A stretch of 64,000 nucleotides of DNA, from assembly GCF_011759505.1 (NCBI RefSeq), contig NZ_JAAOYO010000004.1, forward strand, positions 372,001 to 436,000, written 5' to 3'. The DNA is from Curtobacterium salicis. GTDB taxonomy: Bacteria > Actinomycetota > Actinomycetes > Actinomycetales > Microbacteriaceae. Shown here piece after piece: positions 4,393 through 11,787 of the stretch. Under the pieces are notes generated by a model. It ran no database searches. It was not told the DNA's origin and saw only the letters and a program-made list of their open reading frames with translations. Both the position numbers and the translations under genes were made by a program. Numbering within the stretch: the first letter of the stretch is position 1; every line of letters begins with the position of its first letter.

Positions 4393-4414
4393 GCGTCGTC
4401 CGCCCCACGCTCGG

Positions 4415-4453
4415 ACCGGAGGCTCCCCACACGACGTGTGGGGAGCCTCCGGT
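4415..4453 (+). terminator. Perfect 18-bp hairpin after deoA
   Basis: Arms 4415-4432 and 4436-4453 are exact reverse complements with a 3-nt loop. There is no U-tract, which is common for actinobacterial terminators. It separates the uptake/cdd/deoA unit from adenosine deaminase, which has its own promoter. Confidence 0.8.
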
Positions 4454-4504
4454 GCGTGGTCCACGGGTCCGTCGACCCGCCCAGCGGGGGTCGGTGACCA
4501 CCGG

Positions 4505-6377: not shown

Positions 6378-7208
6378 ATGTCCAGCACCGAGAACCCCCT
6401 GAACGAACCTGCCGTCGACCCGTTCGACGTCGCCCGTGACGCCGCCGCAGTCATCGCGGACCGGTCCGGCATCGAACGGCACGACGTCGCGCTGACGCTC
6501 GGCTCCGGCTGGGGCAAGGCCGCCGACCTCCTCGGTGAGACCGTCTCCGAGATCCCCGCAGCGGACGTCCCCGGCTTCAGCGCCTCGGCCGTCCCCGGGC
6601 ACTCCGGCACGGTGCGGTCGATCCGTCTCGCCGACGGCCGGCACGCACTCGTCATCGGTGCGCGGACGCACTACTACGAGGGCCACGGCGTCCGTCGTGT
6701 CGTGCACAGCGTCCGCACCGCAGCCGCGACCGGCGCCTCGGTCATGGTCCTGACGAACGGTGCCGGTGGCATCAAGGAGACCTGGACGCCCGGCACCCCG
6801 GTGCTGATCAGCGACCACATCAACCTGACGGCCGACAGCCCGCTCGAGGGTGCGACGTTCATCGACCTGACCGACCTGTACTCGGCGCGGCTCCGTGCGG
6901 TCGCGAAGACCGTCGACCCGTCCCTCGACGAAGGCGTGTACACCCAGTTCCGCGGGCCGCACTACGAGACCCCGGCCGAGGTCCAGATGGCCAAGGCGAT
7001 CGGCGGCCACATCGTCGGCATGTCGACCGCGCTCGAAGCGATCGCCGCGCGCCAGGCCGGCATGGAGATCCTCGGCTTCTCGCTCATCACGAACCTGGCC
7101 GCCGGCATCCAGAAGACGCCCCTGTCGCACACCGAGGTGCTCGAGGCCGGCAAGCAGGCCGAGCCGGTCATCGCCGACCTGCTCGCCCGCGTGGTGGCGG
7201 CACTGTGA
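6378..7208 (+). CDS. Purine nucleoside phosphorylase (trimeric, PNP/MTAP family)
   Basis: Cytosolic enzyme splitting inosine, guanosine and deoxy forms with phosphate into base and (deoxy)ribose-1-phosphate. The 276 residues match trimeric PNPs. Seen are LGSGWG (41-46), the PGHSG phosphate-binding segment, GARTHYYEGH (94-103, the counterpart of the family's GRxHxYEG), TNGAGG (126-131) and GPHYETPAE with a following MST.EA segment that contacts the purine. Its stop overlaps the GTG of the sugar mutase, tying nucleoside cleavage to use of the sugar phosphate. Activity on methylthioadenosine cannot be excluded from sequence, but the neighbours favour nucleoside salvage. Confidence 0.93.
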   Translation: MSSTENPLNEPAVDPFDVARDAAAVIADRSGIERHDVALTLGSGWGKAADLLGETVSEIPAADVPGFSASAVPGHSGTVRSIRLADGRHALVIGARTHYYEGHGVRRVVHSVRTAAATGASVMVLTNGAGGIKETWTPGTPVLISDHINLTADSPLEGATFIDLTDLYSARLRAVAKTVDPSLDEGVYTQFRGPHYETPAEVQMAKAIGGHIVGMSTALEAIAARQAGMEILGFSLITNLAAGIQKTPLSHTEVLEAGKQAEPVIADLLARVVAAL

Positions 7209-8836
7209 GCGTCGTCGACACCGCCAGGACCTGGATCGAGCAGGACCCCGACGCCGAGACGCGCGCGGAACTGCAGCGGCTCGTCGACACGGGTGACACC
7301 GCGGAACTCGACGCCCGCTTCGCCGGACGGCTGCAGTTCGGCACCGCTGGGCTCCGCGCCGAACTCGGTGCCGGACCCCTGCGGATGAACCGTGTCGTCG
7401 TGACGCAGGCCGCCGCCGGGCTCGCGCACTTCCTCATCGACTCCGGCCGTGACCGCAGCGTCGTCATCGGGTACGACGGCCGCGTCAACTCGGACGTCTT
7501 CGCACGGGACTCCGCCGAGGTGATGCGGGGCCTCGGCCTCGACGTCACGCTGCTGCCCTCGGCGCTGCCCACGCCGCTCGTCGCGTTCGCGGTGCGGCAC
7601 CTCGGCGTCGGTGCTGGCGTCATGGTGACCGCCAGCCACAACCCGCCGCGGGACAACGGCTACAAGGTGTACCTCGGCGGTGACGACGAGGGCTCGCAGA
7701 TCGTGCCGCCCGTCGACGGTGCGATCGCCGCGGCCATCGACGTCGTCGCGGCCGGCGACATCCGCTCGCTCGATCGCCGGACGGACTACACCGTCGCCGA
7801 TGCGTCGCTCGTCCAGGCGTACGTGGACGCGACGATCGCGACGGTGCCGGCCCCGCGCCTCCCGGTCGACGCGCAGCCGTCCGTCGTCTACACGGCCATG
7901 CACGGCGTCGGGTGGGAGACCGCACGCGCGGTCTTCACGCAGGCCGGGTTCCGCGAGCCGGCCGTCGTGCCGGAGCAGATCGAGCCCGACGGTGCGTTCC
8001 CGACCGTTTCGTTCCCGAACCCGGAGGAGCCGGGCGCGATGGACCTGGCGATCGCCCGCGGTGTCGCGGTCGGCGCCGACCTGGTGATCGCGAACGACCC
8101 GGACGCCGACCGCCTTGCGCTCGCGATCCCGGACGGCTCCGGCTCGTACCGCCGGTTGGCCGGCAACGAGGTCGGGTGGCTCCTGGGTTGGCGCGCCGCC
8201 GCACGTGCGGCCGACGCCGGGCTCACCGGAGTGCTCGCCGCGTCGATCGTCAGCTCGCCGGCCCTCGCCCGCGTGGCCGAGCAGTACGGACTCGGACACC
8301 GGGACACGCTCACCGGCTTCAAGTGGGTGTCCCGCGTGCCGGACCTGCTCTTCGGCTACGAGGAGGCGCTCGGGTACCTCGTTGACCCGCAGGTGATCCG
8401 CGACAAGGACGGCATCTCCGCCGCACTGGAGCTGCTGTCGCTCGCGACCGAGCTCGCGGCGGACGGCCGGACCATCGCGGACCAGCTCGACGCCTTCGCC
8501 GAGCGCTTCGGAGCCTTCGCGTCCGGGCAGGTCGCCACCCGCGTGGACGACCTGTCGCGCATCGGCGAGATCATGGCGGCGCTGCGGGCCTCGACACCGA
8601 CCGAACTCGACGGTGTCGCGGTCGAGTCGGTGACGGACTTCCTCGACGGGGTCGAGGGCTTCCCACCGTCGGACATCCTGCGCTTCGACCTCGATGGCGG
8701 CGCGCGCGTCATCATCCGCCCCAGCGGGACCGAGCCGAAGGTGAAGGTCTACATCGACACCGTCGCGGCGACCTCCGCCGAGGCCGCCGCCCTGGCCGAC
8801 CGCCTGGCCGCGTCCGTCCGTCCGCTCGTCTCGTAG
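7205..8836 (+). CDS. Phospho-sugar mutase (PGM2/phosphopentomutase-like)
   Basis: Alpha-D-phosphohexomutase-superfamily enzyme of 543 residues, the length of the PGM2-like subgroup. The N-terminal FGTAGLR (45-51) binds phosphate, the phosphoserine loop is TASHNPP with Ser144, the magnesium loop is DPDADR (298-303), and the C-terminal phosphate-binding loop RPSGTEPK is present. The PGM2 subgroup includes phosphopentomutases. Because the GTG overlaps the stop of purine nucleoside phosphorylase, conversion of (deoxy)ribose-1-phosphate to the 5-phosphate is the likely job. Glucose-1-phosphate or glucose-1,6-bisphosphate activity remains possible. A 70-bp hairpin element begins 10 bp after the stop. 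Confidence 0.9.
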   Translation: MSVVDTARTWIEQDPDAETRAELQRLVDTGDTAELDARFAGRLQFGTAGLRAELGAGPLRMNRVVVTQAAAGLAHFLIDSGRDRSVVIGYDGRVNSDVFARDSAEVMRGLGLDVTLLPSALPTPLVAFAVRHLGVGAGVMVTASHNPPRDNGYKVYLGGDDEGSQIVPPVDGAIAAAIDVVAAGDIRSLDRRTDYTVADASLVQAYVDATIATVPAPRLPVDAQPSVVYTAMHGVGWETARAVFTQAGFREPAVVPEQIEPDGAFPTVSFPNPEEPGAMDLAIARGVAVGADLVIANDPDADRLALAIPDGSGSYRRLAGNEVGWLLGWRAAARAADAGLTGVLAASIVSSPALARVAEQYGLGHRDTLTGFKWVSRVPDLLFGYEEALGYLVDPQVIRDKDGISAALELLSLATELAADGRTIADQLDAFAERFGAFASGQVATRVDDLSRIGEIMAALRASTPTELDGVAVESVTDFLDGVEGFPPSDILRFDLDGGARVIIRPSGTEPKVKVYIDTVAATSAEAAALADRLAASVRPLVS

Positions 8837-8845
8837 GGCGCGCCC

Positions 8846-8915
8846 GCAAAACACCGGTGTTCGTCAGACACGCCGCGGATTGCCGCGATGTGTTCGACGA
8901 ACACCGGTGTTTTGC
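8846..8915. repeat. 70-bp hairpin element, copy A
   Basis: The arms GCAAAACACCGGTGTTCGTC (8846-8865) and its exact reverse complement (8896-8915) bracket a 30-bp centre that pairs imperfectly. Each arm itself contains the palindrome ACACCGGTGT. It begins 10 bp after the sugar mutase stop and could act as a terminator. A second 70-bp element with nearly the same arms lies at 9935-10004, on the other side of the single gene between them. Confidence 0.9.
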
Positions 8916-9005
8916 TTTCCCTGCACTCCGCGTCGGCGAGAGCGACTGTCCACAGGTGCGGGAAGGTGGGGCTCGCTGGGTCCGCCGAAACTGCGACGGT
9001 TCGGC

Positions 9006-9932
9006 ATGGCCGAACTCGTAGTCCTCGCCGTTGATCCTGCTGACCCGGACCCCGCGCACCGTCGGCGGCTCATCGACGAAGCACGGCGCGGCAGAGTTGT
9101 CCGACTCATCGCGGGTCGGTACGTCCTCACGTCCGAGTTCGAGGCCGCGTCCGAGCACGAGCGCCACCGCGCTCGGATCCGAGCAGTCCTCCCATGGGCC
9201 TCCGAGCGACTCGTCGTCTCCCACGAGTCGGCTGTGGCGCTCCACGGACTCCCGTGGTTGGGGACCTTCCCGGACAGCGTGACGGTCACCGATCCGATCC
9301 GGACCGACGGGCAGCGTCGGGCGCACCTCCAGAAGGCGGGGGGCGCCGGACGGGACCTGCAGGAGACGCGCGTGCAGGGCCTCCCGGTCACCTCACTCGT
9401 GGTGACCGGGGTCGACGTCGCGCTCCGCAGCCCCTTCGCGGCAGCAGTCGTCGTGCTCGACGCGCTCATGGCTCGGGGGGTACAGCGGCAGGCGCTGCTC
9501 GATGAACTGCGCAGCCGGACTCCTCCACCGCGGTCGCGGACCCGAGCGCGGCGGGCCATCGAGTTCGCGGATGGTGCGGCGGGATCGCCAGGCGAGTCCG
9601 TCTGTCGCCTGCGGATGGCCGAACTCGGGTTCCCGGCGCCGGTCCTCCAGCAGGAGTTCGCCGACGAACGGGGCAGGATCGGCTTCGTCGACTTCTGGTT
9701 CCCGGAGCAGGGCGTGATCGTGGAGTTCGACGGTTTCGTGAAGTACCGGGATCCGGCCCTCCGTGAGGGGCGGAACCCGGAGGAGGTGGTCATCGCCGAG
9801 AAGCTCCGCGAGGACCGATTACGGGCTCGACCACGAGTCCGGACGCTCGTCCGCGTGGTGTGGGCCGACGTCCAGGACGACGATCGTCTGTCCCGCGCCC
9901 TCACGGGTGCCGGCCTGCCGCGTGGCTCTTGA
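9006..9932 (+). CDS. AbiEi-like / DUF559 (Vsr-fold) nuclease-like protein
   Basis: Protein of 308 residues in two parts. The N-terminal half has a winged-helix-like segment (about 20-45, ending IAGRYVL) and a stretch around SHESAVALHGL (72-82) like AbiEi-type antitoxin/regulator proteins. The C-terminal third (about 190-308) resembles DUF559/very-short-patch-repair endonucleases, with candidate PD-(D/E)xK residues Glu197, Asp229, Glu240 and Asp242 and a following EKLRED helix. No AbiEii-type toxin gene is adjacent. The gene lies alone between two matching 70-bp hairpin elements. It contains a TTA leucine codon (9819-9821), very rare in such DNA, and looser codon use than its neighbours, suggesting transfer. 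No clear ribosome binding site precedes the ATG. Function is unknown; DNA binding and cleavage are inferred from fold resemblance only. Confidence 0.75.
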   Translation: MAELVVLAVDPADPDPAHRRRLIDEARRGRVVRLIAGRYVLTSEFEAASEHERHRARIRAVLPWASERLVVSHESAVALHGLPWLGTFPDSVTVTDPIRTDGQRRAHLQKAGGAGRDLQETRVQGLPVTSLVVTGVDVALRSPFAAAVVVLDALMARGVQRQALLDELRSRTPPPRSRTRARRAIEFADGAAGSPGESVCRLRMAELGFPAPVLQQEFADERGRIGFVDFWFPEQGVIVEFDGFVKYRDPALREGRNPEEVVIAEKLREDRLRARPRVRTLVRVVWADVQDDDRLSRALTGAGLPRGS

Positions 9933-9934
9933 CG

Positions 9935-10004
9935 GCGAAACACCGGTGTTCGTCAGTCACACCGCGAACAAGCGCGGCGTTTCAGACGAACACCGGTGTT
10001 TTGC
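9935..10004. repeat. 70-bp hairpin element, copy B
   Basis: The arms are 9935-9954 and 9985-10004, complementary except for one base. The right arm GACGAACACCGGTGTTTTGC is identical to that of copy A. The centre differs from copy A. It fills the 79-bp space between the converging stops of the nuclease-like gene (9932) and the biotin carboxylase gene (10012), so it may serve as a bidirectional terminator. Confidence 0.9.
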
Positions 10005-10011
10005 GAGAGAC

Positions 10012-11787
10012 CTACGCGAGCTCGAGCAGGACGTGGCCGGACGAGACGGTCTGGCCGACGGGGGCGTTCAGCCCGGTGACGACGCCGTCCTTGTGCGCCT
10101 GGACGGGCTGCTCCATCTTCATGGCCTCGAGGACGACGAGCAGGTCGCCCTTCACCACGGTGTCACCCTCGGCGACCGCCAGCTTGACGACGGTGGCCTG
10201 CATCGGCGACGCGACCGACGAGCCCGAGGCAGCACGGCCGCCCTTGACGCCGGAGGACCGACGCTTCGGGGGAGCGGACGGCCCCGACGGACGACGGGCA
10301 CCGCCGGCACCACCACCGACGACGGCGGGCATGGTCACCTCGATGCGCTTGCCCTGCACCTCGACGACGACCGTGTCGCGGGAGGCCGGGGCGGGCAGCT
10401 CCTCCGGGGATCCGCTCCACGCCGGGATGTCGTTGACGAAGTCCGTCTCGATCCACTGCGTGTAGATGCTGAACGGCTCGTCGTCGGACGTCGCGAACGC
10501 GGGGTCCGCGACGACCGCCCGGTGGAACGGGATGACGGTCGGCAGCCCCGCGACCTCGAACTCGGCCAGGGCACGACGTGAGCGCTCGAGTGCCTCCGCA
10601 CGCGTCGAACCGGTCACGATGAGCTTCGCGAGCATGGAGTCGAACGAGCCGGACACGACGTCGCCGGAGACCACGCCCGAGTCGACGCGGACGCCGGGGC
10701 CGGACGGGGCGTTGAAGACGTGCACGGGGCCCGGCGCCGGGAAGAAGTTGCGGCCCGGGTCCTCGCCGTTGATACGGAACTCGAACGAGTGACCGCGCGG
10801 GGTCGGGTCCTCGTAGTCGAGCGTGCCGCCCTCGGCGATGCGGAACTGCTCGCGCACGAGGTCGATGCCGGTGACCTCTTCGGACACGCAGTGCTCCACC
10901 TGCAGCCGGGTGTTGACCTCGAGGAACGAGACCGTGCCGTCGGCGCCGATGAGGAACTCACAGGTGCCGGCACCGACGTAGCCGACCTCGCGGAGGATGG
11001 CCTTCGACGACTCGTAGAGCAGGGTCTGCTGCGCTTCGGTGAGGTACGGCGCCGGTGCTTCCTCGACGAGCTTCTGGTGGCGACGCTGCAGCGAGCAGTC
11101 GCGCGTGGAGACGACGACGACGTTGCCGTGCTCGTCCGCGAGGCACTGGGTCTCGACGTGGCGCGGCTTGTCGAGGTACTTCTCGACGAAGCACTCGCCG
11201 CGCCCGAAGGCGGCGATGGCCTCACGGGTCGCGGACTCGAACAGCTCCTCGATCTGCGACCGGTCGCGGACGACCTTGAGGCCGCGACCACCGCCACCGA
11301 ATGCGGCCTTGATCGCGACGGGCAGTCCGACCTCGTCGGCGAACGCGACGACCTCGGAGACGTCCTGCACCGGCTCGATCGTGCCGGGGGCGAGGGGTGC
11401 GCCGACCTTCTCGGCCACGTGCCGCGCCGAGACCTTGTCGCCGAGGCGTTCGATCGACTCGGGCGACGGGCCGATCCAGACGAGCCCGGCGTCGATGACG
11501 GCACGGGCGAAGTCGGCGTTCTCGGCGAGGAACCCGTACCCGGGGTGCACGGCGTCGGCGCCGGAACGTCGGGCGACCGAGATGATCTTCTCGATGACCA
11601 GGTAGGTGTCGGCGCTCGTGGTGCCGTTCAGCGCGTAGGCCTCGTCGGCGAGGCGGGCGTGCAGGGCGTCACGGTCCTGGTCGGCGTAGACCGCGACCGA
11701 TGCCTTGCCCGCGTCGCGGGCCGCTCGGATGATGCGGACGGCGATCTCGCCGCGGTTCGCGATGAGGACCTTGCTGATGCGGGGCAT
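10012..11787 (-). CDS. Acyl-CoA carboxylase alpha subunit (biotin carboxylase + BCCP)
   Basis: Cytosolic subunit of acetyl/propionyl-CoA carboxylase, carrying out ATP-dependent carboxylation of its own biotin. The 591 residues join a biotin carboxylase domain (1 to about 450) to a C-terminal biotinyl domain. Seen are the N-terminal [18 protein letters not shown], the ATP-grasp glycine loop [20 protein letters not shown], and EAMKMEQ with Lys557 as the biotinylation site. Fusion of the two domains is typical of actinobacterial AccA-type alpha subunits. The partner carboxyltransferase is about 6 kb away (17923-19518) beside biotin ligase. Maf lies upstream on the same strand, 98 bp away. Confidence 0.95.

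Follow-up and report, generated by a model that had tools for sequence, protein, structure and literature searches.

Why should a single gene be bracketed by two nearly identical hairpins? The question is raised by a locus of Curtobacterium salicis within a 64,000-nucleotide stretch of contig NZ_JAAOYO010000004.1 (positions 372,001 to 436,000; the window), where a gene for a 308-residue protein (9006-9932, plus strand) sits between two hairpin elements of 70 base pairs (bp). Our best reading is a partnership that works like that of REPINs (hairpin-forming doublets of repetitive extragenic palindromes, REPs) and RAYTs (REP-associated tyrosine transposases), with an unrelated enzyme at its core. 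We think it quite probable that protein and hairpins work together as partners. The more specific reading, that gene and hairpins form an exchangeable partnership in which a predicted nuclease would recognise the words of its own hairpins and act on them in a REPIN-RAYT-like manner, we put at a probability of roughly 0.55.

The initial annotation, made from the sequence alone, had described the two elements largely correctly. Each is exactly 70 bp long (8846-8915 upstream, 9935-10004 downstream; 81% identity), the 20-bp right arms are identical and the left arms show a single mismatch. Every arm contains the palindrome ACACCGGTGT, here called the outer word, which occurs four times in the window against 0.15 expected, always inside these elements (8851-8860 and 8901-8910 in element 1, 9940-9949 and 9990-9999 in element 2). 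An inner word could be read from the sequence in both, as CGCCGCG in element 1 (8871-8877, plus strand, 19 bp past the outer CACC word; mirrored on the minus strand at 8884-8890) and as CACCGCG in element 2 (9960-9966, plus strand; mirrored on the minus strand at 9973-9979). The 30-bp centres differ, as had been stated, yet they are not free, as the stem runs on into them with arms of 33 and 32 nucleotides (nt). Folded as single-stranded DNA, each element beat 200 of 200 shuffles (z of -9.3 for element 1 and -7.3 for element 2). The coordinates of the single gene between them were confirmed as well. Element 1 starts 9 bp past the stop of the upstream gene (7205-8836, plus strand) and lies 90 bp upstream of the bracketed gene; element 2 starts 2 bp past the stop of the latter and adjoins a convergent gene (10012-11787, minus strand). 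In Rfam the elements hit microRNA families at scores far under the cut-offs, which were taken as chance. Hairpins of this kind are termed type A below.

A varying gene and its matched hairpins

The upstream gene, which served as the anchor of this locus (locus 1), was present in 60 of 60 same-genus genomes. Among the 30 genomes whose downstream region was read, the own genome included, 29 carried a gene-sized stretch before the convergent gene; in the remaining one, G035, the interval measured 187 bp and held no gene. The other 30 locus tails were added later, one of them only 153 bases long. The description of the gene as accessory is thus misleading, and a lone accessory cassette was rejected, since at this position relatives have different versions of it. 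As to whether gene and elements are present or absent as a unit, a check proposed by the initial annotation, the relatives carried a diverged gene with hairpins of its own type, and only G035 was empty among the 30.

Locus-1 genes form subtypes with 34-55% identity between types, and the hairpins around them fall into types A, B, C, D and E and a single X, changing along with the gene subtype. Among 54 typed genes, 51 had both hairpins, with the same type on both sides in all 51, while three were without one hairpin. The patterns used for typing were written after viewing the hairpins, so that similarity and Mantel tests are less biased. Over the 51 genes, the mean similarity of upstream and downstream hairpins was 33.5 for own pairs versus 12.4 for other pairings, the best-matching pair being used where one side had several hairpins, and with type E stems shortened by the hairpin finder. 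Hairpin similarity correlated with protein identity (r = 0.44) and not with species distance (r = -0.05) in the 42 genes with usable data, and a partial Mantel test of hairpin similarity against protein identity on 42 genes gave 0.444 (p = 2e-4). All 42 of 42 gene pairs above 70% identity shared their hairpin type, and species pairs more than 95% identical in the C-terminal part of the upstream protein could carry different gene subtypes together with different hairpin types. Therefore, judged from these sequences, the gene and both hairpins appear to be swapped together at a fixed locus, the form in which the small mobile cassette proposed by the initial annotation stands.

The same arrangement was found at paralogous genes. 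Most of 36 genus genomes held 5-9 family matches, and a matched bracketing pair surrounded 66 of 97 distinct family genes scanned, namely 48 of 56 at locus 1, 5 of 5 at locus C3, 6 of 6 at P6 and 7 of 11 at P2. The idea that any long hairpin would match was rejected by the controls, in which matched pairs turned up at 0 of 1500 random positions and at 6 of 250 positions anchored on a hairpin. The C3 and P6 versions are alternatives within the same flanking genes, and the bracketing rule recurs at two loci besides locus 1. A scan of named genomes yielded at least 80 loci, and among the 56 examined outside Curtobacterium up to 19 had a matched pair, with a hairpin threshold less strict and windows wider than in the random and hairpin-anchored control. 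One of these pairs (L291) is doubtful, resembling low-complexity GC repeats. The pairs came from bacteria of soil and plants related to Curtobacterium, namely Frigoribacterium, Frondihabitans, Naasia, Compostimonas, Cryobacterium, Microcella, Arthrobacter, Amnibacterium, Lacisediminihabitans and others, and differed widely in sequence.

Individual loci showed further features. A P6-type gene in G020 (L138, G020:C1:332593-333390) has one in-frame TGA and is probably broken; a matched hairpin pair still flanks it. The third-locus gene of the own genome (L129, G000:C4:248456-248968) is a partial match only, with no bracketing hairpins. At L131, L133, L139, L194 and like loci, belonging to the p3 and p5 paralogues, some unpaired genes have a single hairpin 1.1-1.3 kilobases (kb) before the stop codon.

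Word geometry and dispersed copies

Many hairpins of unrelated sequence have a common geometry, in which a word of about 8 bp in each arm recurs 19 bp further in. A first lag test covered 25 outside-genus hairpins, hand-picked after the pattern had been seen by eye, and nine genus types; 19 was the best lag in 22 of 34 groups. Because of this selection, the test was rerun on all loci with a control, and the rerun is the more trustworthy. It took in every hairpin of at least 50 nt within the windows searched at all 56 outside-genus loci. Such a hairpin was present at 38 loci, and lag 19 was best at 22 of these 38 (score 5.64 versus 3.24 +/- 0.17 in shuffles). It was also best in eight of nine genus hairpin types. 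In control hairpins from the same genus that belong to other classes, lag 19 was best in 0 of 59 cases (3.05 versus 3.02). A sequence private to each type within a shared frame would be expected if the sites were shaped by a family of kindred proteins that differ in specificity.

Type A elements are not confined to the gene. A search of the 3.49-Mb (megabase) genome, one of the checks proposed at the outset, returned 30 exact copies and 34 matches at no more than three mismatches. The palindrome ACACCGGTGT occurs 74 times; 60 of these occurrences form 30 pairs with a gap of exactly 40 bp, although gaps of 25-55 bp were allowed in the pairing. The unpaired palindromes that were read lay mostly in other sequence, and two came from elements with one altered palindrome. 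With genes called by our own codon-position estimate, 21 of 32 copies lay between convergent genes, five between tandem genes and one between divergent genes, and five were unclear. Aligning the 32 copies, we found 85.9% of the cells in the 28-pair stem to be paired, versus 24-48% with the arms slid, a value matched by 18 of 500 shuffles. Two-sided changes affected 50 cells versus 32.9 in shuffles (reached in 0 of 500) and 12 pairs versus 8.6 (5 of 500); the count of further pair types in the stem was not above that of shuffles (449 of 500). Because of this pairing and these two-sided changes, the type A stem can be said to be kept; the outer words stay constant and the centre is drifting.

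Type A elements also occur in multiplied form. In G007 (C1:974851-974960; L060, L065), three ACACCGGTGT follow one another, separated by two identical 40-bp spacers, which makes a tandem doubling of 50-bp period. In the own genome (G000:C1:848201-848412), two A elements with near-identical centres lie 152 bp apart where G020 has one, a local duplication that included the element.

Dispersed copies went together with the cognate gene across the 60 genomes. A elements were abundant in seven of seven genomes with an A gene at locus 1 versus 6 of 53 others (Fisher p 4e-6), B elements in 6 of 15 genomes with a B gene versus 0 of 45 others (p 1e-4), and C elements in 13 of 17 with a C gene versus 4 of 43 others (p 8e-7). 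These counts saturate, with 15 candidates scored per genome, the cut for 'abundant' (10 matches for A, 12 for B and C) was set after viewing the counts, and the B query was one sub-variant. The association extends to sub-variants: gene-flanking A elements agreed with the scattered copies of their own genome in about 27 of 40 inner columns for G000 and 29 for G001, and with those of the other genome in fewer, 18 and 20.5 (30 G000 copies and 26 exact G001 copies compared). Substitution counts from best matches were set aside, as a best match is not orthology and the copies had been chosen by their palindromes.

The predicted protein, its possible action and related systems

The model of the bracketed gene's product aligned with AbiEi structures (residues about 2-189) and with Vsr and homing-endonuclease structures (about 194-305), and E197, D229, E240, D242 and K246 were invariant across 50 aligned sequences. 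On this modelling, the protein is predicted to be a DNA-binding nuclease. Searches by sequence returned little. Pfam had no match for the window protein and, among 20 family members, AbiEi_4 in two and AbiEi_1 in one; a PDB sequence search with the family profile found no match, and NCBIfam gave chance-level matches only. Foldseek alone returned one PDB match below E 0.001, Rv2827c of M. tuberculosis (2.9e-4). At least 574 relatives were confirmed for this group of actinobacterial proteins; most of those with a name are annotated as hypothetical or AbiEi-like. Phages searched for family relatives yielded none, and plasmids one weak match on a large Collinsella replicon.

Both neighbours, taken from the gene calls, were found in relatives. 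We take the upstream one to be phosphoglucomutase/phosphomannomutase-like and the convergent one to be biotin carboxylase-like. If so, neither is a toxin gene, and no AbiEii nucleotidyltransferase adjoins, which sets the locus apart from the AbiE type IV toxin-antitoxin arrangement. The predicted AbiEi fold is that of the antitoxins of such systems (6y8q), from which the protein would differ by the nuclease-like domain fused to it. With Vsr (1cw0) and the EDxHD homing endonucleases (I-Bth0305I, 3r3p) it shares, in the model, the nuclease fold and conserved acidic and lysine residues; unlike in those systems, neither intron nor intein was seen, and tens of copies exist of the hairpins around the gene.

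Among the proposals of the initial annotation, the hairpin as target site of the encoded nuclease-like protein is the best supported, given a hairpin type that follows the gene subtype in the sequences compared and a modelled nuclease-like fold. Each protein likely recognises its own hairpins and may spread them. In the mechanism we propose, the AbiEi-like part would read the words of its own hairpins, and the protein would act on these hairpins as RAYT transposases are believed to do on REPINs. The nuclease part might nick or cut at extruded or single-stranded hairpins, and repair of the break could copy hairpins into other gene ends and allow the cassette to displace competing versions there. 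For this full chain of recognition, cutting and copying, the odds are at most about even. Broader still, and falling somewhat short of even odds, is the proposal that AbiEi-Vsr fusion nucleases across Micrococcales make up a new repeat system, each reading, guarding and copying its own hairpin (four private words in a 19-bp frame), with several such codes per genome at fixed loci, swapped by cassette exchange. The many protein-hairpin pairs, differing in sequence within a common geometry, amount to a natural specificity screen whose word code is testable by swapping pairs, and the reading offers a likely role for a widespread actinobacterial protein group.

In REPIN-RAYT systems, a distinctive single-copy enzyme gene stands beside hairpins of the genome's scattered type, and several types coexist, each with its own gene (PMC3116915). 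The present loci are alike in having an enzyme gene adjoining hairpins of the scattered type and types coexisting with their own genes; they also share a scatter of mainly intergenic elements, each with two inverted repeats around a variable centre, here in 30 exact copies of fixed length. The differences lie in the 19-bp word repeat in each arm, in a gene and two hairpins that vary as a unit at fixed loci, and in the lack of the unpaired GTAG or CGTC tag that marks one end of each REPIN-RAYT repeat, GTAG occurring in 0 of 32 type A elements and the four CGTC columns being base-paired in 25 to 32 of 32 copies. Above all, the enzyme is predicted from its model to be AbiEi-like and Vsr-like, and not the HuH tyrosine (Y1) transposase that defines the class. 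For this reason the arrangement, although it works like REPIN-RAYT, is not filed there. CGTC-tagged REPs are likewise scattered palindromic repeats, found mostly between unidirectional and convergent genes, apparently without a dedicated transposase and described mainly in alphaproteobacteria, with the CGTC tag unpaired (PMC3733652). In type A, CGTC is paired with GACG in most copies. Among the papers listed on AbiEi, DUF559, I-Bth0305I, actinobacterial REPs and palindromes or hairpins of Curtobacterium and Microbacteriaceae, none reported such a system.

Counter-evidence and rival explanations

Several observations weigh against a functional partnership of the kind proposed. Physical linkage of gene and hairpins could in itself yield part of the type match without any function. 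Matched pairs were missing at the p3 (0 of 7), p4 (0 of 4) and p5 (0 of 8) paralogues, 0 of 19 in total, and at 37 of the 56 loci examined outside the genus. Six genomes (G005, G044, G041, G020, G007 and G034) hold A elements and no gene more than 51% identical to the window protein. We looked for A copies decaying once the cognate gene is lost and did not find this: without an A gene, the elements were intact in 27 of 32 cases in G005, 31 of 34 in G044, 14 of 14 in G020, 7 of 9 in G007, 16 of 23 in G041 and 5 of 8 in G034, whereas genomes with an A gene kept fewer exact (16 of 33 in G018, 12 of 23 in G022, 5 of 12 in G037), the totals allowing up to three mismatches and including a few chance matches. 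Absence of the gene therefore does not simply lead to decay of the copies. Either exchange happened lately or the copies serve some purpose themselves, and their terminator-like placing supports the latter. G035, whose best family match (1.1e-8) is no close member, has no exact A element and three at up to three mismatches, but still 4 B and 8 C matches. Finally, in the compared stretches of G000 and G020, whose matched flanks have an A element in both at eight sites, no clean element-only empty site was found, the lone element-less site differing by about 130 bp. The movement of single elements, which we infer, thus gains no support from this comparison, and the mobile-cassette proposal is half right.

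The hairpins might instead be lineage-specific two-way terminators or RNA stabilisers at gene ends, matched to the gene by joint transfer. We consider this unlikely. In its favour, scattered A copies lie mostly between convergent genes (21 of the 27 classified among 32 examined), their stems are long and kept, copies are intact in some genomes without an A gene, and three gene ends with an A element in G000 have a B-type hairpin in G020, one of them worn. A terminator, however, needs neither a fixed outer word nor a fixed length nor a 19-bp word repeat, and this repeat is absent from other hairpins of the same genomes (0 of 59). Type A ends in TTTT, but no T-run follows the stem in those B, C and D hairpins that were read, and a terminator scan matched only a 6-pair sub-hairpin in a small part of element 1 and nothing in element 2. 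Nor would termination explain one gene family bracketed in several genera by matched, ever-different pairs, and a separate family, GGGAGGC...GCCTCCC, in the same stretches is the better candidate for ordinary terminators. The initial annotation had held that the element would be an ordinary terminator if it followed many unrelated genes with no link to this gene family and if all relatives had the gene at this locus without the elements. That applies only in part: the hairpin does follow many unrelated genes, but its link to the family is strong.

Improbable, in our view, is that the protein is an AbiEi-type regulator and the hairpins are operators of its own gene and of a scattered regulon. 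The predicted AbiEi-like part, words repeated at regular spacing and an element 90 bp upstream of the gene would fit such a role, which would leave the conserved nuclease-type residues idle and sits poorly with a second element downstream of the gene and with scattered copies at gene ends, only one of the 27 classified being in a divergent, promoter-type position. We give still less credence to an unrelated transposase encoded elsewhere, for example RAYT or IS200-like, that moves the hairpins and often inserts them beside the gene: it would account for their REPIN-like form (inverted words, conserved ends, variable centre) and leave unexplained both the tie between hairpin type and protein subtype and the two-sided pairs at three loci and in other genera.

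Of 34 strong hairpins in 400 kb of the own genome, 33 belonged to the GGGAGGC family (12), type A (15) or type C3 (6); the stretches had been picked for their A copies, which makes the A count unfit as a measure of density. The hairpins at the two bracketed genes detected in the own genome are of types A and C3. The separate and abundant GGGAGGC...GCCTCCC family, seen in stretches of G000 and G020 (L241-L281), perhaps comprises ordinary terminators of the genus, and a sequence at about 4412-4456 of the window looks related to it.
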